Shown: positions 6,280 to 39,441 of the stretch, in pieces
Position numbering within the stretch: position 1 is the first letter of the stretch
Layout of the letters: each line of letters opens with the position of its first letter
NCBI RefSeq assembly: GCF_020251205.1
Contig: NZ_JAIWYX010000005.1
Location: 62,001-126,000 of the forward strand
Reading direction: 5' to 3'
Source: Arthrobacter sp. M4
GTDB lineage: Bacteria; Actinomycetota; Actinomycetes; Actinomycetales; Micrococcaceae
DNA length: 64,000 nt
Program-made: the position numbers and the translations under genes
Notes under the pieces: generated by a model
What the model was told of the DNA's origin: nothing
The model's database searches: none
Seen by the model: the letters and a program-made list of their open reading frames with translations, nothing else

Positions 6280-7038
6280 TTCCGCGGTTCCACAGAAGTG
6301 CACAACTTTATCCACAGGTGTGGAGAAAGTACGTGGACATCCCAGCAATATCCACAGAGAACGGCTAGTTGGAGCCGATCCAGGGTGAAGCCAAGCCTGC
6401 AGCACGTTATACCCAATGTGAATAAGGCTGTGGATTGTTGAGCTAGTTTCACGGAGTGTTCACGTTCCACCTATTGAAGTTGTCATCCTTGGGCGTGGAT
6501 TCCGATCAAAACGACCTCTCCAGGCGTAGGGACGGCTCAGCAGGAGCTCTTCGGTGCTGTGGGTTTCCGTCCAAGGCAGTTACCCACTTAAGAACAGGCC
6601 GCTCTCCACAAGTTATCCACAAGTGTGGACAGCGCTTGGTGGATGTGGCGCTCTGGCCTGTATTTACGCGGATTGCGGGCCTGTGGAAGGATCCAAATCA
6701 CAGGCCTGTGAGTTATTAACAGTGTTGATAAGTCTGTTGAAAGCCCAAGGCACGCACCCTCAACGGCAAGATTTTCCACAGACTGCGCGTGGAACCCCTA
6801 CTTTTCCACTTAGCCACAGCCCGGGGCCTCAAAGTTATCCACAGATGTGGATTACTGATGTGGGAATCTCTTTCCAGGCGAGCACATCCGCGAGAAGACG
6901 AGCCAGGAGGTAGGAAAGCCTCTCGAACTACACGAATGTAAGTTACGCACAGTGTGGATAACGCCTGTGGAAAAGCAGGCTGACAATATGCGGCTCCCTG
7001 CGGCTTTCAAAGCATGGTCGCCAGCGAAGGCAAAAGAA
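6280..7038. other. Gene-free DnaA-box cluster between convergent genes
   Basis: About 800 bases separate the 3' ends of the tag-like and rhomboid genes, with no credible gene. Four perfect TTATCCACA boxes are present: 6308-6316, 6613-6621 and 6835-6843 on plus, and 6953-6961 on minus. One-mismatch boxes lie at 6319-6327, 6348-6356, 6624-6632, 6772-6780 and 6846-6854. Several are inverted pairs a few bases apart (6613/6624, 6835/6846). Because both flanking genes end here, promoter autoregulation does not explain them. Possible roles are DnaA titration or an auxiliary origin element (inference). Confidence 0.75.
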
Positions 7039-21931: not shown

Positions 21932-22532
21932 GGAAGTCTTCCGCCTTTCATTGCTGCTGTCAGTGCTGGTCCGCTCGCGTGGGCGAGCTGGTTCGCGCCG
22001 CTCGCCGCCTGTTGTTCCGTGGTCGCGCACGGTGGATCCAGAGTGCGAATCACAAAAACAGCTTCAGGGACGGGACGCATTGCTGACAGCTTAGCCGCAT
22101 CCGTGGAGATTAACCCATCCCCAGCTCACAGGCTTGTAGTTCTGCTGGGCTCGGTCTGGGAAGTCAGGCCAAGCGGCTGTGCACTGTGGGGCCCTTCAGA
22201 GGGAGATTGTTGTTTGAGGGATTCAAATTTTTGGGATTCGTAGTGTTAATAACTCTTGTGGAAACTGTGGAAAACCCGCTTCTGCGGTGCGGATCCGCGG
22301 TTAAGCCCTGTTCATGTGTTGTGGGTGGGCTGGGTTTTAAACAGGGTGTGGATGTGGATTGCTAACCGGGGCGTTTTTGGGAATCCACAGACGGCTTAAG
22401 GGTTTTAAGCCCATTAACCGCGCTTGTCCCCTTAAGAATCCACAGGTTTATCCACATGTACTCGTTAATAAGGTATAGCTTGCCGCTACTCGGCCCTTGG
22501 CGATGTGGATTCCGGTCTCGTACGCGCCGGGG
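21932..22532. other. oriC: Replication origin oriC (dnaN-dnaA intergenic)
   Basis: The region lies between dnaA and dnaN, the standard oriC site in actinobacteria. A perfect DnaA box TTATCCACA is at 22448-22456. Looser boxes lie at 22257-22265, 22266-22274, 22353-22361, 22381-22389 and 22436-22444. An AT-rich stretch at 22210-22256 (ATTCAAATTTTTGGGATTCG and TTAATAACTC) is the likely unwinding element. TTTTAAAC and GGTTTTAAGC stretches lie between the boxes. No gene fits here. Box calls were made by eye against TTATCCACA and TTGTCCACA. Confidence 0.88.
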
Positions 22533-27732: not shown

Positions 27733-28791
27733 GTGACAGTGAGCAGTAGCGAAGCCTCCACGCAGCGGATCCCGCCGTTTATATCGTTGGGGTCCGCGCG
27801 GGCCTCCGCAGTACCACTCGCAGCAATTCAGTCACCGTTTAGTCATACCAATTCGGTTGAAAACGCAGCCGTTTCACGTGAAACCGAAATCGTTAGTGGC
27901 AATGTGATGGATTCCATCGACGATTCGAGTCCCATTGCCCGCCAGTTGGCTAACGAGACACGGCGCCGGGAGAGGCTGGATGGACGCAAGCTGCCCAGAC
28001 CGAGCAAGACGCGGATTTTCACCGTCTCCAACCAGAAGGGTGGCGTCGGTAAAACGACCACCACGGTGAATATCGCAGCTGCCCTTGCCAGTGCTGGGTT
28101 GAACGTGATGGTCATTGACATCGACCCGCAGGGCAACGCATCCACGGCTTTGGGAATCGAGCACCACGCGGACGTGGACAGCATTTACGACGTCCTCATC
28201 AACGACCTTCCGCTCAAGGACGTCGTGGCGCCTTGCCCTGATATCCCCAACCTCATTTGCGCCCCCGCGACCATTCACCTGGCCGGCGCTGAAATTGAGC
28301 TCGTGTCCTTGGTGGCCCGGGAGCAGCGATTGCGACGGGCCATTGATCTGTACGCCAAGGAACGCGAAAAGAATGGCGAGCCGCGCCTGGATTTCATCTT
28401 CATCGACTGCCCACCCAGCCTTGGCCTGCTGACTGTTAATGCCTTCTGTGCCGCGGGCGAAGTCCTGATTCCCATTCAGTGCGAGTACTACGCGCTGGAA
28501 GGCTTGAGCCAGCTCTTGAAGAACATTGAGATGATCCAGAAGCATCTCAATGCCGATCTTGTAGTGTCGACGATTCTTTTGACCATGTACGACGGCCGCA
28601 CGAATCTGGCCGCCCAGGTTGCTTCCGAAGTTCGTCAGCATTTCCCCAACCAGGTGCTTAGCGCCGTGGTACCCCGCTCTGTGCGTATTTCCGAGGCTCC
28701 GAGCTATCAGCAGACTGTGATGACGTACGACCCATCATCCAGCGGCGCGTTGTCCTACTTGGAAGCCGCTGCTGAAATCGCTGAACGCTAA
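27733..28791 (+). CDS. parA: Chromosome partitioning ATPase ParA (352 aa)
   Basis: Walker-type ATPase that moves ParB-parS complexes. The deviant Walker A is KGGVGKTTTTVN, then DIDPQGNASTALG and the Walker B FIFIDCPPSLGLL. About 90 residues precede the fold. I list the GTG at 27733, but an ATG at 27907 (MDSIDDSSPIARQLANETRR) is also possible. A perfect parS at 27871-27884 lies in the extra stretch and would be read as VSRET. If translation starts at 27907 the site is in the leader. A hairpin separates the gene from parB. Confidence 0.95.
   Translation: MTVSSSEASTQRIPPFISLGSARASAVPLAAIQSPFSHTNSVENAAVSRETEIVSGNVMDSIDDSSPIARQLANETRRRERLDGRKLPRPSKTRIFTVSNQKGGVGKTTTTVNIAAALASAGLNVMVIDIDPQGNASTALGIEHHADVDSIYDVLINDLPLKDVVAPCPDIPNLICAPATIHLAGAEIELVSLVAREQRLRRAIDLYAKEREKNGEPRLDFIFIDCPPSLGLLTVNAFCAAGEVLIPIQCEYYALEGLSQLLKNIEMIQKHLNADLVVSTILLTMYDGRTNLAAQVASEVRQHFPNQVLSAVVPRSVRISEAPSYQQTVMTYDPSSSGALSYLEAAAEIAER
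27871..27884. promoter_or_regulatory. parS: parS site within the 5' part of parA
   Basis: Perfect core GTTTCACGTGAAAC. It is the ParB-nucleation palindrome nearest to oriC, about 5 kb away. Confidence 0.92.
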
Positions 28792-28857: not shown

Positions 28858-30129
28858 ATGAGCGAGAAGCGACGAGGCCTGGGCAGAGGTCTTGGTGCAC
28901 TCATTCCCAGCTCCCCAACGGCTGGTGTGACCACAAGCGGCGCCGCACCGTCCCGACCGGTTGACCTGTTCTTCCCTGAGTCGCGCAAGAGCCCTGTAGA
29001 GGGCGCGTCTGGCGATGGGGCTGCTGAAGACTCGGGCACCGCAAGGGCCTCCCGAGAAGGGGCGCCGGCGCCTAGTGCGGCGGAAGCTGAAGAACCAACG
29101 ACGGCGAAGCCCGCTACTGCGAAGACGTCCCCTCAGCGGTCGGCTGGCAAGGCTCCGGCTCCCCAGATCGCGGAAGCCAAGGACACAAGCCGGAAAGTTC
29201 CGGCCGGGAAATCTGCGGCAAAGTCCGCCGGAGCTGACCCGGCCGCGGTGGGGTCGGCCGCGGATGAAGCTGCGGTTACTGAGGTCAATTCTGATGTTGA
29301 CTTGGTTGAGGTGCCTGGTGCTCGGTTTGCGGAGATTTCGGTTACGGACATTCATCCCAACCGAAAACAGCCCCGTAGCGTCTTCGATGAGGACGAGATG
29401 GCCGAGCTGGTTCACTCAGTCAGGGAAATTGGCGTTCTCCAGCCGATCGTGGTTCGAACTTCCACTGAGGAAGGCCGGGAACCTTATGAGCTGGTTATGG
29501 GTGAGCGCCGGTGGCGTGCGGTCCAGGCGGCCGGACTCGACACTATTCCTGCGATTGTCCGGGACACCTCGGATGATGACCTACTCCGTGACGCGCTGTT
29601 GGAGAACCTACACAGGAGCCAGCTGAACCCATTGGAAGAGGCTGCCGCCTACCAGCAGCTCCTAGAGGACTTTGGCACCACGCACGAGCAACTGGCCGAC
29701 CGCATTGGCCGGTCCCGACCACAGGTTTCCAATACCCTTCGCCTGCTTAAGCTTCCGCCGCTGGTCCAGCGCCGGGTTGCGGCCAACGTGTTGTCTGCCG
29801 GTCATGCTCGTGCCCTCCTTGCACTGCCTGATCCGGCAGCCATGGAACGCCTGGCTCAGAAGATCGTCGCCGAGGGCATGTCCGTTCGGGCAACTGAAGA
29901 GGCTGTAGCTCTTTATGAGGATTCAGAGAAGCCGACCAAGAACAACATCCCCCGACCGAACGCACGGCACGAACGTTTGGACTACCTGGCGTCGTCGCTA
30001 TCGGACCGCTTGGACACGAACGTGAAGATCACGCTCGGTGCTCGTAAGGGCAGGGTCAGCATCGAGTTCGCCAGCGTAGAGGATCTGAATCGGATCATGG
30101 ACGTGCTGAACCCTGGTTCGGAATCGTAG
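28858..30129 (+). CDS. parB: Chromosome partitioning protein ParB (423 aa)
   Basis: CTP-dependent clamp that loads at parS and spreads. Starts MSEKRRGLGRGLGALIPS, the conserved ParA-stimulating N-terminus, with GGAGGG about 9 bases upstream. A long Ala/Pro/Lys-rich linker (residues about 30-145) follows. The CTPase domain has PNRKQPRSVFDEDEMAELVHS and GERRWRAVQAAG. The helix-turn-helix region has LADRIGRSRPQVSNTLRLLKLP. The C-terminal dimer domain is at the end. The linker is longer than in most ParB. A hairpin terminator follows. Confidence 0.96.
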   Translation: MSEKRRGLGRGLGALIPSSPTAGVTTSGAAPSRPVDLFFPESRKSPVEGASGDGAAEDSGTARASREGAPAPSAAEAEEPTTAKPATAKTSPQRSAGKAPAPQIAEAKDTSRKVPAGKSAAKSAGADPAAVGSAADEAAVTEVNSDVDLVEVPGARFAEISVTDIHPNRKQPRSVFDEDEMAELVHSVREIGVLQPIVVRTSTEEGREPYELVMGERRWRAVQAAGLDTIPAIVRDTSDDDLLRDALLENLHRSQLNPLEEAAAYQQLLEDFGTTHEQLADRIGRSRPQVSNTLRLLKLPPLVQRRVAANVLSAGHARALLALPDPAAMERLAQKIVAEGMSVRATEEAVALYEDSEKPTKNNIPRPNARHERLDYLASSLSDRLDTNVKITLGARKGRVSIEFASVEDLNRIMDVLNPGSES

Positions 30130-30210
30130 CGTCTGTTCGGGATTGCAGAGTTGGCCTGGGCTTGTAGGTCTTGGCTGCGTTTTGTAATTTGGTTCTCCAT
30201 TATCAAAAAG

Positions 30211-30250
30211 TAGGGTCTGCCCATATTGTCTGTATGGGTAGGCCCTATTT
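30211..30250 (+). terminator. Terminator downstream of parB
   Basis: A 15-base stem (TAGGGTCTGCCCATA with TATGGGTAGGCCCTA, two G-T pairs) and a short loop, followed by TTTGTC and preceded by AAAAAG. It ends the rpmH-to-parB direction and could act on both strands. Confidence 0.75.
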
Positions 30251-30987
30251 GTCAGGGCTGGGAATTGCCGTCGCCGCGCTTGGCTGCACGAGGTGACCGT
30301 ACTGGAGGCGCACTCGACGAGGTCATTGCCGAGAGAGCGCGTTTGGGTTCGCTGTATGGCGATGTGGTCGGGTCCACGTGTTTTCATCCGTCCTGGCATT
30401 TTCAGTGGCTGAGTATCCGACTATGTCTAGGCGTGGGGGCGGGGGCTGGGATCGCCGGCGGAACCTGTCTTTGTGGATGTCATGAATCAATCGGTGTCGA
30501 TTACTCCTTGGCTGCGGCAAAGATGATGTGATCCGATCTCCACAAATTGGATGAGATAATCTGCTTTGTTCTGTTGATTATTTGGGTTTCATCTGTGTTC
30601 TTGAAGTGGAGCTGATGATGGATCGATCATTTTGTGTCGTGGCGTCTCGTTGAACAGCTGTTGCACTCTCAGAGTTCATGAGAAGCCATCAAGTGTCTAC
30701 ATTCCTGCGCAATCGGCCGCGACTGCAAGTGGAATGATGGCAGGCCTGGGCTGCTGGATCTGGCAGGCATTTGGAGCCGGGGGTATGGTGCGGCCCTCAG
30801 GCATGTCTGATTGGGTGGACCTAGTTCAGGTCAAGGCCGCTTGGGTAACGCTCTCATCCAAAACTGGTGCATGGTCGGCCGTAGTAGGCCGACGGAAAGG
30901 TACGGACTGCTGGGTTTGATTTGGTGATTCGCTCACTCCCCCGGATTGCGAAGGAAGGCATTTGAACGGACGACTTTTGGGCCTGAA

Positions 30988-31001
30988 GTTTCACGTGAAA
31001 C
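30988..31001. promoter_or_regulatory. parS: parS site
   Basis: Perfect core GTTTCACGTGAAAC; the first site beyond parB. Confidence 0.92.
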
Positions 31002-31245
31002 ACCACGGGCCAAATATCGGTGTACAGATTGCATCGCCGAAGCGTAGCTTTTGTCAGCAATTTTGTCGGTCCACGTTTCGATTCGCGCCGCTCCCGGAGA
31101 ATCTCTTGATTGCGCCATGATGCGCAGCCACCTAGGACGAAGGCTTAGGGAGAGGACTCGCACGTCCTCAAGTTCGCTGGTGTGTGCGATTCTGAGATTC
31201 TGTCGCGTATTTGGACTTGCACCCATGACGGTGGTCAGCCGGGGG

Positions 31246-31261
31246 TGTTTCACGTGAAACA
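31246..31261. promoter_or_regulatory. parS: parS site, perfect 16-mer
   Basis: TGTTTCACGTGAAACA, the complete 16-bp consensus known from other bacteria. Confidence 0.95.
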
Positions 31262-31350
31262 GCCGTCGAAACAGCCGGTGTGTCCGGGACTGTTGTTATA
31301 GTCCTGGGAGATGGCCCTTTCGGTACATCTGTGGTGACGATTGCATCTGC

Positions 31351-31385
31351 GCCCTGAGCCCTGAGCCCTGAGCCCCGAGCCCAAA
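31351..31385. repeat. 7-bp tandem repeat (GCCCTGA)
   Basis: Three exact GCCCTGA units followed by two degenerate ones (GCCCCGA, GCCCAAA). Confidence 0.9.
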
Positions 31386-31779
31386 GGCAGGGCAATTGCG
31401 CATTTTTGGCTGTCTACGGCAGTGGACGTGTGGACCGGATCCCAATCCGACATTGGCTTCACACTCTCGGTCACTGAGCAATTGGCGACTTCGCTGGATC
31501 AGCGACCTTCCTAGCTTTGGGTGCTTTTGCGCGAATCGCTGCAGGTGTACAGACTGGGTCGCAATGTACTGCTTCTTTGGATAGTTACCTGGGCACCAAC
31601 TGCCTGGATGCTCTTGATGGCCCCTGTAGTCAGTTCTCCTTGTTGGTGGCGCACGTGAACGGTTGATGGAGCTTGACCCGGAGTGCCTTAGCTGAACCAC
31701 CTGCTTCCGGAGTTCTCGCCGGAAAGCCTGTGGTGAATCGTTGGGTCTGCCGCGCGCCGATAGTCTACTCACAGCCAGA

Positions 31780-31793
31780 GTTTCACGTGAAAC
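31780..31793. promoter_or_regulatory. parS: parS site
   Basis: Perfect core GTTTCACGTGAAAC. Confidence 0.92.
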
Positions 31794-32075
31794 GCTCACG
31801 CTACCGCTGAGCCTGCCCGATCTCTTGGAGCAAGCTTGCTGACTTTCAGGTGAAGAATGGGGGCAGATCTGGCAGGTCTCGTCAGTGCCTGACAAGCAGT
31901 CATTCCCTCGGTCGGGTATCAACTGCCTGTGGGGCATCCAAAGGAACAGGTGCGCTTCGTGGCTGAGGCAATCAGGTTTTAGTTCCAGGATCGCTCTCAG
32001 TCGCGATCTATCTTTCCCAACAGCCCTAGCAGCTGCGGCATCGCGGCGGATTCGCGGCTGCGAGATCTATCACTT

Positions 32076-32089
32076 GTTTCACGTGAAAC
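32076..32089. promoter_or_regulatory. parS: parS site
   Basis: Perfect core GTTTCACGTGAAAC, preceded by T as in the 16-bp consensus. Confidence 0.92.
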
Positions 32090-33488
32090 GCTCCCCTGGT
32101 GTCAGTGCCGCCGACACCTTGGTGCGGAGCTCCCTGCACGTCCCTCCGCTATTGCTCAGGCCTTGCAGCGGCTGTGCACCGGCACGCAGGTTCGCTCGAG
32201 GTTCAACTCATTGGGCGGACGACCGTGTTAGGTATTGGTCGCGTGGCATGCGCGATGCCAGGCATATGACCACCTTCCGTCCGCCCCAAATGAGCGAAGA
32301 TTTACCACCATACGAGGACTGATCTAGTGATGAATTGGACCGGTCCGCGCACTGCCCGAGAAGTGACGAATCGTCCTGGACGGGCAGGACTCCCTCTTCG
32401 ATCAGGACTTGGTCAGCGGTGAGCCGACAAGACTTCGGTGGGCAACGGCCGGCCATAGTGGGATGAGCTGTCATTACCAAGTAGAAGTTCGGCCAATGCT
32501 AAGTAGCCTTCTTACCCCTCCTTGCCGGACTAGTTCAGAGTCGATCGACGCCTGGGACCAGGCGTCTGGGTCTGTTTGCAGCGGCGGGGCCAGGGAACAT
32601 TGCGCTTATGGGACGAAGCCCCCGAATCTGGGGACGGGAGCCAAATGAACGGCTTGGTGCACAAACTCGCAGTCCGCCGTACCAGTCGCCCCCATCACTG
32701 GTTTGGGGAAATAGGCAGGTTGAGGTGTCCACTGGATGTGGGTACCACTATCCAACGGTTGGCTTCCCGACAGCAGACAGCATCAAGATTTTATCTCAGC
32801 ACCCACGACTGAATGGCTTCGCTCTCGCGCCGGGCACAGCGACTCCTTCTTGATCAGAGCTGGAGTTGGTGGTGATGGATGCAAAATTTCCATGTGTGGT
32901 TAGTAGTGCCGGCCTCCGCAACAAGCCGGGTAGGCGATGACATGACCTCCACGACCGCTGGCCATTGCAGTGCGGGAGGAAGCCATCAGTGCGTGACGTT
33001 TCGACCTTCGCTATTCCGCCGACACACCGGAAATCACTGGTGGGGTACATCGTGGAAAGCACGCGGGCACCTCCGATTTGGTATCCAGTTGTTGCCCTTC
33101 GTCTGGCATAGTACGAGCTTGGCCTTGGATCCAGCCGTTCCTGGTCAGCGGCAGATGGGCTTGGGGCAGCTGGGCGATAGTACTTGGTTTTGCCCAGTTG
33201 GTTGCGTCCCACTTCTGCGACTCAGCTCGGTCACGACAATGGGTAGTGTGCAAGTTCTGTGCGTCTTGCACGTTCTAAGAATTTCCACACGCGTTTTGGT
33301 TCGAACATCGTGAGTCCCCCAGGTCCCACCAAAGGAACAATGTCGTGCTGGCGTGGTGCCGCTGGGTGGTTCACTTCCTCGCGAGAAATTGCTCGTTGTC
33401 GGCGCTCGAAGCCACGCCCAGGCTCTTTATCGGATTCCGGCAAGGTGTTAGATCCGGCTAATATCCATGTTGCGTAGTCTGTGGACGG

Positions 33489-33869
33489 TGTGGATAAGGC
33501 TGTGGATATTGATGTGGATAAGTGTGTGGAAAATCGTTCCCTGCTCTCACAGTCGGAAGGTCAAAGGCACCCAATACTTCCCTTGCCTTTTGAGAGGTCT
33601 ACGATCTCGAGCCACCGTTTCACGTGAAACGATGGCTCACCCCGAGCGCACCCGACAGTTCTTCTCCGGAAATTCAGTAAAGTTTACCGAAAATAGCGGA
33701 AGTTAGCGGTGTCACACGTGGCCAGGTCTGGATGTAGACAGGTCTAGCCTGTTCTGAGCAGGGCTATCCAACGCGAACTGCATCACTCTATTTTTCTCCA
33801 CACACCAATGAAGTTATCCACAAGGCCCTCCTGTGACCTGTGGATAACTGTGTGCATAACTTATCCACC
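33489..33869. promoter_or_regulatory. DnaA-box module inside the parS zone
   Basis: Four minus-strand boxes start at 33489, 33501, 33513 and 33525, an exact 12-bp period. The first and third are perfect (TGTGGATAA on plus); the second and fourth have one mismatch. About 280 bases on, two more perfect boxes face each other (33814-33822 plus, 33839-33847 minus), with a one-mismatch box at 33861-33869. An AT-richer stretch (33663-33705) and a parS palindrome lie between the two groups. Binding is not proven. Confidence 0.72.
33609..33638. promoter_or_regulatory. parS: parS site within a 30-bp palindrome
   Basis: The perfect core GTTTCACGTGAAAC at 33617-33630 is extended on both sides by GAGCCA / TGGCTC arms with one central mismatch pair. 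Confidence 0.92.
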
Positions 33870-34127
33870 ATTGCCCTGTCTGTATGGTGAATGAAGACCG
33901 TGCAATGAAGCGGCTTGGTACCGACTGAGCGTTTCCCGCCAGCGAAGTCGTTCCTAGAGCGGGCCCCATCCGCCGTTCTGCGGGGCGATTTGGAGCAGCA
34001 GAATACTTGATAAGGAATCGGGAGTGGGACGTCGACTTGCTCGCGGGTTATCCTTTCGGATTCCGATGTGCAATCTTGACGCGTCCTACAAGTTCGCATT
34101 CCCCCCATGGGCGCAGTCCAGTCTACT

Positions 34128-34141
34128 GTTTCACGTGAAAC
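34128..34141. promoter_or_regulatory. parS: parS site
   Basis: Perfect core GTTTCACGTGAAAC, preceded by T. Confidence 0.92.
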
Positions 34142-34660
34142 GATCCGAGTGAGGTCCCCAGTGCCATTGCTGCTTTGTCAGGGCCGCGCGCTCCTTCGCA
34201 GAATGCCACGGGGGCTCCACGGTGGGCAGCGGGTCGTTCCGCCTTCCAAGCTGGTTGGCCCACGAGATGGGGAAACAAGCATGCGTGTTCCAGTGTGTTC
34301 TTGTCCTTGTCCTATGGGCAGATTCATGACCTTGAGCTGGGAGCCACCATACAGACATACAGAGGGACTGCCCCCATTTAGTGCCCGAAGGGGTACAGCG
34401 CCGGATTGCTCAGCGTCCTTTGGCAGAGACTCTTCCGGTCATTTGGATAGCCCCGCGTACAGTCTGCTTGGTTACCGGAACGGGTCTTCCGCCGAAAACA
34501 AAAAGGGGCAGTGACCCTAGAGGTGCATTTCCAAGTTGTGCGCATTCCGGTTTCCACGCTGAGGCGCCGAAAGACACGTCGCTTCTCCTCCCGGGAGCTT
34601 AGTGGCCAGGATCTCGTCTGGACTCCCGACTTATACGGTAGACAGTGGCTGTGCTGTCCT

Positions 34661-34787
34661 CGGAAAGACGGAAAGACGGAAAGACGGAAAGACGGAAAGA
34701 CGGAAAGACGGAAGGACGCAAGGACGCAAGGACGGGAAGTCGGAGAGACGGAAAGGCGGAGAGAGGGAAGTCGGAAAGTCGCTTGGA
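34661..34787. repeat. 8-bp tandem array (CGGAAAGA), six exact plus about nine degenerate units
   Basis: CGGAAAGA repeats exactly six times (34661-34708). Units such as CGGAAGGA, CGCAAGGA, CGGGAAGT and CGGAGAGA follow in the same register, with one 7-base unit near the end. The plus strand is almost entirely purine apart from the leading C of each unit. Open frames crossing it (for example 34511-34972) are repeat artefacts. Confidence 0.95.
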
Positions 34788-35963
34788 CGGAGGTATGGGC
34801 GAGCAGAGTGACGGACGAGCAGAGGGACGCAAAAGCCGGACAGAACCAATCGAGGGATTGGTCGATTGACGGAAAGACGCCGAGGGCTTCCCGGGTCGAA
34901 TCACCTCAGTGCTCCCCTGGGCAAATCATCGGAGTGTGGCCGGCACATTGGACACCGGCTCATGTCGAATAGGGTGGCTGTTGCTCCGAGTTAGAGGAGA
35001 CCTAGCGCCCTACTTTTCCGACTCTGTTTAGTCGCCGAGTCTGGAGCCCACGCCAATAGTGGACCTAGACGGTTGCCTAATCGGGCTACATGGGTTTTCG
35101 ATGCAAATACGTTCCGGCTGTATGCGGCTTACAGGGTCAGAGCCGAAATCGAATCGAGCCTGGGCTCACCTTAGAACAGGGCGAGCAGCCTGGATCAAGT
35201 CGTTGCAAAAGGAACTGGTCCCGACGCTGCTTCCCTAGAGCCCATTCTGAGTCGTCCTCTTTCAGCTCACGGGGAGCCCTAAGCATACGCGATGCCAGAC
35301 AACGGTGGTGTGCGGCAGAGAGGACATACCGTCTTGCCTTCGATGCGGTGATTCTTTTGTTGTTTCCTGTAGAACTGATCGACGCTTTGTGGATGTAGAA
35401 CCGGCCCGTCTTAGAGAACAGTGACGGAAAGGAAGTGTGTGCACCGTTAGGTCCGCGAGCGGAAGTGTGTGTTGGAGCTGGGCATACGCAACTATCCACC
35501 CACGACTGTTGGAGAGGCCACACGGCGTTATGTAGGATCCCACTGCCCACTTGGCGGAGAATCTTAGTCAGAATGATTCAGCTGCCAGTACTACACAGAG
35601 TTCGAACAATTTCAGTAGGTCCGGCGTACATAGTGGCTTGCTCCGCAGGGCTCACCGGGGTGTAGCAAGATGCAACGCGTCGACTTCGTTCAGCGTCGAC
35701 GGAGTGTTCGTCCTCCTTGTGCCATCTGTCCGTCTGTTCCTTCTTGTCCGTCTGTTCGCTGCTGGCACATTTGTGGGAACTTCACCGTCCACGAGGCTCC
35801 GTGGTTCCAGGATGCGGGCGTCTAGCCGCCACTGCTCTTGAGAACTTGGCGGCACTTCTCGGCTTTCGCTCGTGGCTCGTAATGGGAATCAAGTTAATTC
35901 AGTAGAGCAAGCATGTTTTTTGAGGACTCCTGGACGTTTGAGAAGGCTACAGGCCCATCGGTG

Positions 35964-35977
35964 GTTTCACGTGAAAC
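35964..35977. promoter_or_regulatory. parS: parS site
   Basis: Perfect core GTTTCACGTGAAAC. Confidence 0.92.
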
Positions 35978-36309
35978 TCTGAATGCCTGGCGCCTAAGTG
36001 CGAGACAGGCGCAGCGGGCGCATGAAAGAGCGAGACACCGCTATTCATCCGAGTCCACGGTGATGGCTGAACCCCGCGACTCAAAGTAGCATCCGGGCGG
36101 GACCACGCATGGATTATGCACCTACCCCGATTGGGATCGGAAAGACCCAAATGGTCCAGGCAAATGACTGGTCCACCAAAGAATTAGAAACACGTAAAGT
36201 ACCGTGGATCTTTCGACGCGTTACAGCATTCCTTGCAGAAGGCCTGGTGCGGCGCTTGCTGCTTCCCTCAGGAGTTCCTTGGTCGGCGGAAACCAACGAT
36301 CGATAGTGC

Positions 36310-36323
36310 GTTTCACGTGAAAC
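36310..36323. promoter_or_regulatory. parS: parS site
   Basis: Perfect core GTTTCACGTGAAAC, 75 bases from the next, imperfect site. Confidence 0.92.
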
Positions 36324-36398
36324 AGCCGCTTCTACCAGCCATCTGTCCGCGCCCCTGCGCCAACTTGGCAATCGACTCTCACCCCAAAAGGCGTTGTG

Positions 36399-36412
36399 GT
36401 TTCACGTGGAAC
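36399..36412. promoter_or_regulatory. parS: Imperfect parS site
   Basis: GTTTCACGTGGAAC, one mismatch from the core, with the central CACGTG kept. Confidence 0.65.
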
Positions 36413-36733
36413 ATGAATCATTTCAGGCGTAAGACACCTACCCGGACGACGCCCGCCCTATGGGTGTGCCTGCGGCGCAGCAGGACGACGCCGTCCTTTC
36501 ACTTTACGAGACCCCTGAGGACGAAAACCTGCCGCTGGAACGGCCGCATGAACCGGGAGATTTCGTTGCCTTCAAGGAGCAGCTATAGCCTTTGGGCAAG
36601 ACTGGTCATCGCCGCAGTCGGTCAGTGCACAACTTGAGTTGATTGGGCAGTAGGGACGACAGAGTGAAATGAAACATCTCTGAATTGGTGGCGCCGCAAT
36701 TGGCCGCGAATGACAAATCTTTGGAATGGTCCG

Positions 36734-36770
36734 AGATGCAAGATGCAAGATGCAAGATGCAAGATGCAAG
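36734..36770. repeat. 7-bp tandem repeat (AGATGCA), five exact units
   Basis: AGATGCA occurs five times in direct succession, plus AG of a sixth. Confidence 0.95.
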
Positions 36771-36920
36771 GGGCCCTTGGGAATGGGCGCTCGAGTCCGT
36801 TCCCTAGAAGACCGAAAGGGTCGAGTAGTCCATAAACACAATCTGGCACGTGATTGTTGGCGCCAGTGCTGTGTGGATTCTTGGACTTGTCTGGCTGGTG
36901 CATTCTGAATTCGGGACGGG

Positions 36921-36956
36921 CCATCCAGTCTGTTCCACGTGAAACGGACTGGATGG
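36921..36956. promoter_or_regulatory. parS: Imperfect parS at the centre of a 36-bp palindrome
   Basis: The core GTTCCACGTGAAAC at 36932-36945 has one mismatch. It is flanked by CCATCCAGTC and GACTGGATGG, perfect 10-base inverted arms. Confidence 0.7.
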
Positions 36957-37524
36957 TTGTACACTCCGGGAACAGCGTCGACTCTTTACCGGAAAGCGAC
37001 AGGCCAAGGTTCGCTGCTACCGTCCGCGGCCGCCGTCCCCTACTGTCTTATGGCTGATCTGCCAGAAGCCATCCATTTCGTGTGGTGGTTGTGCAGCCCC
37101 TGGCGACCATGAGATGCAGTCGCGAAGGCGGAGTAATGTACTTTTCCAGAACCCGACCGCACTGAGCGCAGTCCCGCCGGCTAGGCGATGCGGTGGGAAA
37201 CTACGGTGGCAATCGACCACGTAATGGCGCGTTCCCCCGACATAACCAAATCATGCGATAGCGATGGCCAAAAGCAGGACTGAAGCGGCGGCCGATTCCA
37301 GACACATTGTGAAACGCCAGATCGCGGGGCATCAGTAAAAAAGCCGAACAAAACAATCGAAAATTAATGAATACGCTATCAGCCGATGTCGATAAGCGTT
37401 GGCCCACCCTTCGTTCCGCCCTCAAAGCAATCCCGGAGGCATGTCCTGCGTCCTGCCGTAGCTTGGCGAAGCAGCACGCAATCAATGCAAGACCTACGAA
37501 CGTCCAATAGATGGCTCACTCGCA

Positions 37525-37572
37525 GGCGTGTCCCATCATCTGTCCCGCTAGGCGTGTCCCATCATCTGTCCC
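37525..37572. repeat. 22-bp direct repeat, two exact copies 4 bases apart; possible insertion-sequence end
   Basis: Copies at 37525-37546 and 37551-37572 both begin GGCGTGTCCC and end ATCTGTCCC, separated by GCTA. Paired direct repeats of about this size occur at the tips of IS21-type elements, but no transposase remnant is visible, so that origin is only a guess. Confidence 0.6.
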
Positions 37573-37700
37573 CCAACGCTTGCCGCAAAGGGTGGCAGCG
37601 CCGGAATGAACCCGAACACACGAAGTCCAACAATCTGACGCCTACACGACTAGGGCTGGCACCTGCACCGGCGCTGCTACCCGCACCAGCACCTGCACCT

Positions 37701-37990
37701 AGCAAAGCAAGGTCCGGTTCTAGCTAAACTTTGCAGACCTAAGACCAAGGAATCCCTTGCCGAAATGAGTGTCGCAAAATTCGCTAAATCATGAACACGG
37801 TTTCGTGGTCAGGCTTGCCACTCGTCCATCGCCATAGCAAAGGAAGGTCCGGTCCTTGCCAAACGCTGCAGACCTTAGAACCAAGGAATCCCTCGCCGAA
37901 ATGAGTGCCGCAAAGTTCGCTGAATCATGAACACGGTGTCGTGGTCAGGCTTGCCCCTCCTCATCGTCCCCATAACAAGGCAAGGCCGGT
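37701..37990. repeat. Diverged tandem duplication, about 135-138 bp period
   Basis: Unit 1 (37701-37835) and unit 2 (37836-37973) align along their whole length with scattered substitutions and small indels. A truncated third unit starts near 37974. Shared landmarks are AAGGTCCGGT, CCAAGGAATCCCT, GCCGAAATGAGTG and GAACACGGT. Each full unit keeps a nine-codon frame from ATGAGTG to TGA (products MSVAKFAKS and MSAAKFAES), which may be chance. Confidence 0.85.
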
Positions 37991-38051
37991 GCTGCCGAAG
38001 TGGAGCGGTCATTGCAATGTTGACCAGCCCCGGTGCGGCAGCACCGGCCTT
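37982..38051 (-). terminator. Hairpin downstream of trxA
   Basis: AAGGCCGGTGCTGCC at 37982-37996 pairs perfectly with 38037-38051 over a 40-base loop, 55 bases past the trxA stop. The T-run is weak, so termination is likely but not certain. Confidence 0.6.
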
Positions 38052-38105
38052 TGCTCAAATGTGTCCGGAAGGCGCTTCCTCGGAATCCGAGAAGCAGCAG
38101 CTCAA

Positions 38106-38432
38106 TTAGGACAGGACGTCAGCGAATTCTTTCTCGAAGAACTGCTTGGGCTTAGCGCCAATGACGGTGCTCTTCACTTCCCCGCCGCTGAACAGGTACA
38201 CAGCGGGGATGGACGTGATGCCATACTCGGCAGCGATGGCGGGGTTGTCGTCGACGTTAACCTTCACGACCTCAACCTTCTCGCTGTATTCAACGGAGAT
38301 CTCGTCGAGAATCGGACCGAGCTTGCGGCAAGGCCCGCACCATTCTGCCCAGAAGTCGACAATCACAGGCTTGTCGGCGGCCAGGACATCAGTGCTGAAA
38401 CTTGCGTCGGTAACGTCTTTGGCGTTGCTCAT
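38106..38432 (-). CDS. trxA: Thioredoxin (108 aa)
   Basis: Small cytoplasmic disulfide reductase. The active site is WAEWCGPCRKLGPIL. The cis-proline is in YGITSIPAVYLFSGG. The start giving MSNAKDVTDASF puts the protein at the standard thioredoxin length. A frame open further upstream reads through the gap to trxB and is not conserved. It follows trxB by 52 bases and uses TrxB as its reductant. Confidence 0.95.
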   Translation of the reverse strand: MSNAKDVTDASFSTDVLAADKPVIVDFWAEWCGPCRKLGPILDEISVEYSEKVEVVKVNVDDNPAIAAEYGITSIPAVYLFSGGEVKSTVIGAKPKQFFEKEFADVLS

Positions 38433-38484: not shown

Positions 38485-39441
38485 TTAGGACTGCAGCTCG
38501 GCCAGGTAGTGCTCGACGTCCAGGGCAGCCACACAGCCTGAGCCGGATGCGGTGATTGCCTGGCGGTAGGCGGGGTCGATTACGTCACCGGCGGCAAAGA
38601 CACCCTTAAGGCTCGTCTTGGAGGTACGGCCTTCGACGGCGATGGTTCCCTCGGGGGTCAGTTCCAGGGTGTCCTTGACGAGTTCCGTACGTGGATCGTT
38701 GCCGATTGCCACAAAGACACCAGTCACGGGGAGTTCCGTTTCGGCACCGTCCACGCTGTTTTTCAGCTTAAGTCCAGTGACCTTGTCCCCGCCGAGAACG
38801 TCTTCAACAGTGGTGTTCCAGACGAAGTTGATCTTTTCGTGCGCCAGAGCCCGGTCGGCCATAATCTTGGAGGCCTTCAGGCTGTCGCGGCGGTGCACCA
38901 CGGTGACCGACTTAGCAAACTTAGTAAGGAACAGGGCCTCCTCCATGGCGGAGTCGCCACCACCGATAACGGCGATGTCCTGGTCCTTGAAGAAGAAACC
39001 ATCACAGGTTGCGCACCAGCTAACACCGTGGCCTGAGAGGCGCTTCTCGTTAGGAAGCCCAAGCTCACGGTAAGCCGAACCGGTGGACAGAATAATTGCC
39101 CGCGCCTGGAATGTCTCCCCCGTGCCGATGGTGACCGTCTTGACGTCGCCGTCGAGCTTTAGTTCGGTGACATCCTCGAAGAGGATCTCAGTGCCGAAGC
39201 GCGCCGCCTGCTTCTCGAAGTTCTCCATGAGATCCGGACCCATGATGCCGTCCGGGAACCCCGGGTAGTTTTCAACATCCGTGGTGTTCATCAGCTCGCC
39301 ACCTGCGGTGACCGACCCTGCAATGAGCAGCGGCTTCATGTTGGCACGGGCGGTGTAGACGGCGGCCGTGTAGCCAGCCGGACCCGAGCCCACAATGATG
39401 ACATCACGTACGTCTGACGTGGTGTTTGCTACCTCGCTCAC
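38485..39441 (-). CDS. trxB: Thioredoxin-disulfide reductase (318 aa)
   Basis: FAD/NADPH flavoenzyme that reduces thioredoxin. FAD-binding [20 protein letters not shown] is at the N-terminus. The redox CATC is in [13 protein letters not shown]. The NADPH fingerprint is [17 protein letters not shown], and the C-terminal FAD motif is [19 protein letters not shown]. It forms a pair with trxA near parB, as in mycobacteria and Streptomyces. Confidence 0.96.

Follow-up and report, generated by a model that had tools for sequence, protein, structure and literature searches.

In the model systems known to us, bacterial centromeres consist of parS sites that are scattered among genes. Here we describe a gene-free block rich in parS sites that lies between parB and trxA in a 64,000-nucleotide stretch of an Arthrobacter genome (this whole stretch is called the window below) and that carries near its middle a phased array of DnaA boxes. 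ParB loads onto DNA at parS sites, from which it spreads, and it recruits SMC (PMC7083940, PMC7022226; statements on these and the other papers cited refer to the parts of the text available to us). The locus resembles that of Corynebacterium glutamicum, an actinobacterium in which ten identical parS sites, nine of them intergenic, form one origin-proximal cluster that loads ParB and SMC (PMC7083940). Unlike here, those sites are spread over a 35-kb region situated 73 kb from oriC, and the available part of that report mentions neither a gene-free block nor a DnaA array (PMC7083940). With chromosomal ParABS systems in general the locus shares a parA-parB operon near oriC and the same parS core, while it differs from the systems covered in the available text in that all perfect parS sites but one fall into a single gene-free interval together with a phased DnaA-box array (PMC7022226). 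Links of ParB or ParA to DnaA have been described in Bacillus subtilis, Vibrio cholerae and Deinococcus radiodurans (PMC7022226). Such links in other bacteria make a coupling of the two systems at this locus plausible.

Clusters of DnaA boxes outside oriC are also found in Streptomyces, and the datA and DARS elements of Escherichia coli feature sites for helper proteins (IHF/Fis) and DnaA nucleotide switching. The array described here is like datA and DARS, as presented in the available text, in being a non-coding group of DnaA boxes located away from the dnaA flanks; it is unlike them in being embedded in a candidate centromere, with parS inside or beside it, and in its strict 12-bp head-to-tail phasing (PMC4585315). 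Two separated DnaA-box groups near dnaA are also known from the bipartite oriC of B. subtilis and Helicobacter pylori, whereas the present array is separated from dnaA by ~10 kb and several genes, was not seen to have a strong unwinding element and coexists with retained dnaA-flanking boxes (PMC4285127, as far as the available part of that text goes). Clusters of parS and clusters of DnaA boxes are each already known; their arrangement here is new, and a literature search that left subscription journals largely uncovered returned no gene-free parS block or DnaA-box/parS element described for Arthrobacter.

Results

Sixty intervals between parB and trxA were fetched from the genus, of which two were left out, L150 because its contig ends and L166 because trxA was not reached, so that counts over 59 intervals refer to 58 relatives and the window. 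All 59 complete intervals span between 3917 and 9357 bp (median 5491) and contain on average 8.15 perfect parS sites. A sequence-only reading of the window had proposed a centromere-like zone at this position and a comparison of the interval across relatives. This comparison bears the proposal out, as a gene-poor, parS-rich block of 3.9–9.4 kb was present in every complete genus interval, and conserved translated genes, which that reading had named as a finding that would count against it, were not found there; the exceptions to gene-freeness that were seen are transposase genes in two relatives. Throughout the genus, each of 101 genomes (the window's own included) has 6–14 perfect parS sites, while the reversed control pattern was met once, in 1/101. 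The DNA between the sites is poorly conserved. With blastn at 1e-3, any similarity to the zone of the window was seen in 17 of the 58 relatives, the only stretch matched in at least five of them being the DnaA array at 33489-33533, and tblastx of the zone against the same relatives gave one match. The spacer sequence thus drifts, whereas the length of the block (to within about a factor of two), its number of parS sites and the DnaA array are retained.

In the window itself, all ten parS sites listed by the sequence-only reading were recovered, namely eight perfect copies of GTTTCACGTGAAAC and two with one mismatch, as was the additional perfect core that it had noticed inside parA (Table 1). 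With up to two mismatches allowed, 11 matches were observed versus 0.13 expected in shuffles. The genome holding the window, a draft of 5.07 Mb in 96 contigs, has nine perfect parS sites, every one in this cluster, and no copy of the reversed control pattern; it also has an SMC gene. The sequence features that mark a ParABS system were found: a deviant Walker A motif (KGGxGKT) in ParA, a ParB family match together with the GERR motif, which is the CTP-binding motif of ParB, and parS near origin genes above chance. In 28 of 30 named loci (L001-L030), the 1.6 kb that precede the parB match contain a perfect parS. A regular spacing of the sites was considered and rejected, being mild at most (coefficient of variation 0.73 versus 0.86 for random placement). 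In two loci from other genera, L118 and L114, the canonical core is absent from the interval, where 7 and 5 copies of GTTCCACGTGAAAC, respectively, occur; these copies suggest a putative shifted parS consensus. L117, from the genus of L118, has five canonical parS sites in the examined stretch.

The surroundings of the zone are as tightly packed as had been claimed, since the rest of the window, scored just as crudely, has no gap longer than 888 bp and a median gap of 92 bp. Open reading frames (ORFs) exist mechanically in the zone, and the earlier statement that none of them is a credible gene agrees with Pfam, Rfam and codon scores. The Pfam scan covered the 52 ORFs of at least 60 amino acids lying wholly inside the gap, listed ORFs that run into parB or trxA being outside it, and gave no match at gathering score; the sole match, to CENP-R with 19.3 bits, is below the cut-off of 27 and was treated as chance. 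Rfam, searched over 20–45 kb, gave three matches at E-values up to 1 and none at gathering score. Fifteen genes of the window served to train a codon model, and these same genes, quoted here as real genes, score 21–486, while the top ORF of the zone (at least 30 amino acids) scores 14.5 and the second 2.9. Controls for codon scores, box counts and phased arrays were first-order Markov resamplings rather than exact shuffles. The maximum over 60 resampled zones, 9.8, was exceeded in the zone by one 42-amino-acid ORF only (36460-36588, score 14.5). This coding-like ORF overlaps a decayed duplicate of a kinase-gene fragment, whose source, the gene of a 628-amino-acid protein with Pkinase and PASTA domains ~36 kb away, is its sole other genomic match; the ORF was found in 0/60 other genus genomes in which it was sought. 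Across intervals the median top ORF score was 2.7. The top ORF of L185 scores 110.4, and that interval contains two transposase genes. In L166 (genome G047), ~14 kb with transposase and phage-integrase-family genes splits the zone; the transposase genes of these two relatives are of the IS110 and rve families. In L166, one box, one parS and three further boxes are kept beyond the insert, where trxA was not located. Hidden genes were thus rejected on the basis of Pfam, Rfam, codon scores and blastn/tblastx, the lone coding-like ORF being the kinase-gene fragment. A plasmid origin was likewise rejected, as a search of 72,556 plasmid records at 1e-5 gave no match to the zone, and so was an assembly artefact, as an equivalent block is present in single-contig relatives.

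The centromere-like, gene-free character of the zone is supported by these results, but parS sites are not all that it holds: it also contains the DnaA-box array, which the sequence-only reading had overlooked. In the window, a perfect parS lies between two groups of DnaA boxes. Over the 59 intervals, 7.2 boxes with up to one mismatch were counted per interval versus 1.7 in resampled sequence, and 2.44 versus 0.04 when only perfect boxes were considered; the densest cluster begins at 0.36–0.62 of the interval length. At least three same-strand boxes (up to two mismatches) at an exact 12-bp period were present in 57/59 intervals versus 0/59 after resampling (one resampling per interval), and at least two in 59/59 versus 5/59. 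All 86 runs of at least three phased boxes keep to the same strand. In 56/59 intervals a perfect parS was found no more than 165 bp from where the cluster starts, whereas 23.9 were expected, and in 39/57 one was found within 300 bp rightward of the start of the longest array. An alignment of the 59 modules showed conserved box arrays and parS and little beyond. The 15 most enriched 8-mers of the intervals are parS or DnaA-box words, and the remaining ones, in our reading, mostly resemble flanks or spacers of parS and DnaA boxes, leaving a few weaker words (z-scores of 7–8, such as CGGGGGAG or GTGGCCAC) without explanation. The array is therefore a cluster of several DnaA boxes that is non-coding, above chance and conserved. 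As the only stretch of the zone that aligns to at least five relatives, it points to a possible role in coupling replication to segregation, which the sequence-only reading did not consider. The DnaA boxes flanking dnaA are present in module carriers and in most other family members. In the window, the dnaA-dnaN gap (22031-22532) has one perfect box and two in total (up to one mismatch), compared with two and 4–5 in most Arthrobacter relatives, and the parS zone is unusually box-rich, with four perfect boxes and ten in total.

The distribution of the array was assessed in 54 of 80 named loci and 20 family representatives, some of them partial and all counted apart from the 59 intervals, and with a tree of four proteins from 35 taxa. 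Arthrobacter sensu stricto, Pseudarthrobacter, Paenarthrobacter and Sinomonas account for 24 of the 54 named loci, 12 assigned by the tree and the rest from their names and the identity of their ParB. Of these 24, 23 have a DnaA cluster with a weight of at least 5, the exception being L003 with a weight of 3, while the other 30 named loci, some partial, have no cluster above weight 3. The sampled array carriers, with L003, form one clade with a support of 1.00; the array is lacking in the sister lineages, namely Psychromicrobium, PH39 and E3 (E3 being partial). Among the family representatives, 3/20 carry it (L115, L116, L124). Outside the clade, apart from members with short gaps, gaps of 0.8–9.2 kb with 1–6 perfect parS sites and no DnaA cluster were found, and among the few inspected some contain real genes and others poor ORFs only. 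The array is thus exclusive to the clade, and the long parS-bearing gap is not.

Both neighbours of the zone, parB and trxA, point into it and are followed by terminator-like hairpins. The mean best 60-nucleotide folding energies over the 59 intervals were −30.9 and −37.0 kcal/mol at the edges versus −25.0 kcal/mol in the interior; a terminator energy threshold as an edge test was rejected as not discriminating. Strong hairpins at both edges would fit transcriptional insulation.

An amidase-like gene (PG_binding_1 plus Amidase_3), which we take to be cwlM, presumably the gene that sits beside trx in mycobacteria, occupies the position between parB and trxA in 10 of 161 intervals searched, some of the 161 being partial; all ten are outside the genus (examples are A. 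koreensis, Brevibacterium and Humibacillus, and the loci L021, L023, L056, L080 and L118). It was found in none of 61 genus intervals (two partial), and when it was compared with 31 genus genomes, 30 were without a match and one gave a weak match to the peptidoglycan-binding part. The gap may have opened where the amidase-like gene was lost. The order of the two events is left undecided because the gene is also missing from most other family intervals, short gaps included.

Discussion

We consider it probable, at roughly 0.7, that the zone is a ParABS chromosomal centromere enlarged to a gene-free, hairpin-bounded block with a DnaA control site inside. The best reading is one of known parts in a new arrangement, in which a centromere loading ParB and SMC would be insulated from transcription and combined with a DnaA site. 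ParB-CTP clamps would load at the eight to ten parS sites, as in the family, and slide over DNA free of genes and of incoming transcription, the latter being proposed because both convergent neighbours end in strong hairpins. Gene-free, insulated DNA would favour this sliding. The dense ParB zone would recruit SMC and be pulled by ParA, whereby the origin region would be segregated. DnaA may bind cooperatively to the 12-bp-phased array in mid-zone, near parS, and ParB occupancy and DnaA availability may influence each other via the array. The likeliest form of this would be a DnaA titration or regulation site ~10 kb from dnaA that is duplicated and segregated together with the centromere.

Several points weigh against this reading. 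In C. glutamicum one parS is enough to maintain the organisation of the chromosome, according to the available part of that report (PMC7083940), and other bacteria segregate with parS in or between ordinary genes, so the need for a long empty block is unexplained. Eight named members of the family (two Psychromicrobium, three Rothia, Kocuria, Pseudoglutamicibacter and Micrococcus) do without the block, having gaps of 57–328 bp with 0–2 parS sites. Conversely, long gaps with 4–5 parS sites and no DnaA cluster exist outside the clade, in L026 (9.2 kb) and L046 (7.0 kb), which makes the gap itself less special. Insertion sequences are tolerated inside the zone in two relatives, L185 and L166. The interior of the intervals folds well too, with 190/236 windows at or below −22 kcal/mol, and only the means separate the edges. 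Of the longest arrays, 18/57 have no parS in the 300 bp rightward, and in several of these parS lies leftward instead. Finally, short ORFs of five relatives score 9.8–13.4, marginally over the resampling maximum of 9.8 for the window.

A more far-reaching version of the same idea can be put forward only tentatively. It takes the locus to be one clade's insulated, gene-free centromere whose core is both a cooperative DnaA filament site and a ParB loading site; DnaA assembly and clamp loading would gate each other directly, so coupling initiation to origin segregation, and the empty DNA would have been selected as sliding space for ParB.

We think it unlikely that the array marks a further, second or outlying, portion of the replication origin (a bipartite or alternative oriC), in which case the zone would be an origin region and parS would accumulate there for that reason. 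The two DnaA-box groups with parS between them and the strictly oriented, 12-bp-phased boxes would suit an origin, as would, weakly, the slightly lower mean minimum guanine-cytosine (GC) content over 40 bp in the modules (0.396 versus 0.435 in other interval windows). Yet module carriers keep the box sets beside dnaA, and the module has only a weak AT-rich dip (a 60-bp GC of 0.42 at 33655 versus 0.33 at 22204 in the dnaA-dnaN gap), with two equally AT-rich places of the zone, at 30542 and 37336, far from the array. In a 400-kb stretch of one relative, GC skew gave a signal too weak for placing the origin.

Neutral origin of the block, as a gene desert left by gene loss into which parS and DnaA boxes drifted or spread and whose length has no selected function, is also improbable. 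It would account for the amidase-like gene that fills the gap in 10/161 intervals and is absent from the genus, for the decayed kinase-gene fragment, short tandem arrays and 136-bp duplication in the zone of the window, for the transposase genes in two relatives and for the wide variation of gap length in the family. Useless DNA, however, is expected to be deleted, whereas the length persists in 59/59 genus intervals despite diverged sequence, and parS and the phased array persist far above chance. Small, fast-evolving proteins or an untranslated RNA encoded in the zone but missed by conservation tests are very improbable, for although short ORFs exist, the codon signal is confined to the kinase fragment, Rfam gives no family at gathering score and Pfam none at its cut-off, and the zone shows neither conserved translation nor long conserved DNA.

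If the zone is an enlarged centromere with a DnaA site, a genus that keeps several kb of empty, hairpin-flanked DNA is a natural experiment on the question whether transcription-free DNA is required for ParB to slide and for SMC to be loaded. The array may tie the copying of the chromosome to its separation, and as a conserved element near parS it provides a defined target for studying how initiation and segregation are coordinated. As conserved sites lie in non-conserved spacer, the spacer, parS and DnaA sites are separable experimentally, and close relatives without the array or without the gap are ready-made comparisons.

Annotated features and further observations

The genes next to the zone were named via NCBIfam, and the closest named matches to the ParB of the window are from Arthrobacter, Pseudarthrobacter and Paenarthrobacter. 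The coordinates are collected in Table 1.

Table 1. Features of the parB-trxA zone and its neighbourhood, in window coordinates.
Feature	Position	Strand	Remarks
dnaA	22533..23951	-	DnaA boxes in both flanking intergenic regions, the usual place of oriC
parA (ATPase)	27733..28791	+	KGGVGKT Walker A at residue 102
Perfect parS	27871..27884		Inside parA coding sequence
parB	28858..30129	+	TIGR00180, 193.5 bits versus cut-off 58.45; GERRWR motif at residue 215
Gene-free, centromere-like zone	30130..38105		7976 bp, from parB stop (30129) to trxA stop (38106); GC 0.562
Terminator-like hairpin after parB	30208..30250	+	19-bp stem, −30.8 kcal/mol, z −6.2
Perfect parS	30988..31001
Perfect parS	31247..31260
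Perfect parS	31780..31793
Perfect parS	32076..32089
Left DnaA-box array	33489..33533	-	Boxes at 33489, 33501, 33513, 33525; 12-bp period, same strand; two perfect TTATCCACA, two with one mismatch
Perfect parS	33617..33630		Between the two DnaA-box groups; centre of imperfect 30-bp palindrome
Right DnaA-box group	33794..33869		33794(+), 33814(+), 33839(-), 33851(-), 33861(+)
Perfect parS	34128..34141
Perfect parS	35964..35977
Perfect parS	36310..36323
parS, one mismatch	36399..36412
Decayed duplicate of Ser/Thr kinase gene fragment	36438..36553	+	86% DNA identity over 116 bp to G000:C55:61845-61960
parS, one mismatch	36932..36945		Inside imperfect 36-bp palindrome
Long terminator-like hairpin downstream of trxA	37982..38051	-	−56.9 kcal/mol for 37965-38070, z −6.1
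trxA	38106..38432	-	Convergent to parB
trxB	38485..39441	-

Repeats within the zone comprise a tandem duplication of 136 bp and two tandem arrays with short units (37700-37993; 34661-34778; 36734-36770). A second dense cluster of DnaA boxes was observed at 6308-6974, between the genes of a 3-methyladenine glycosylase and a rhomboid protease, with 13 boxes within 1 kb; it is located ~16 kb from dnaA, on the side opposite to the zone. At least six boxes within 1 kb near the rhomboid gene were found in 28/30 loci, that of the window included, and one of the two misses is a contig-cut locus.

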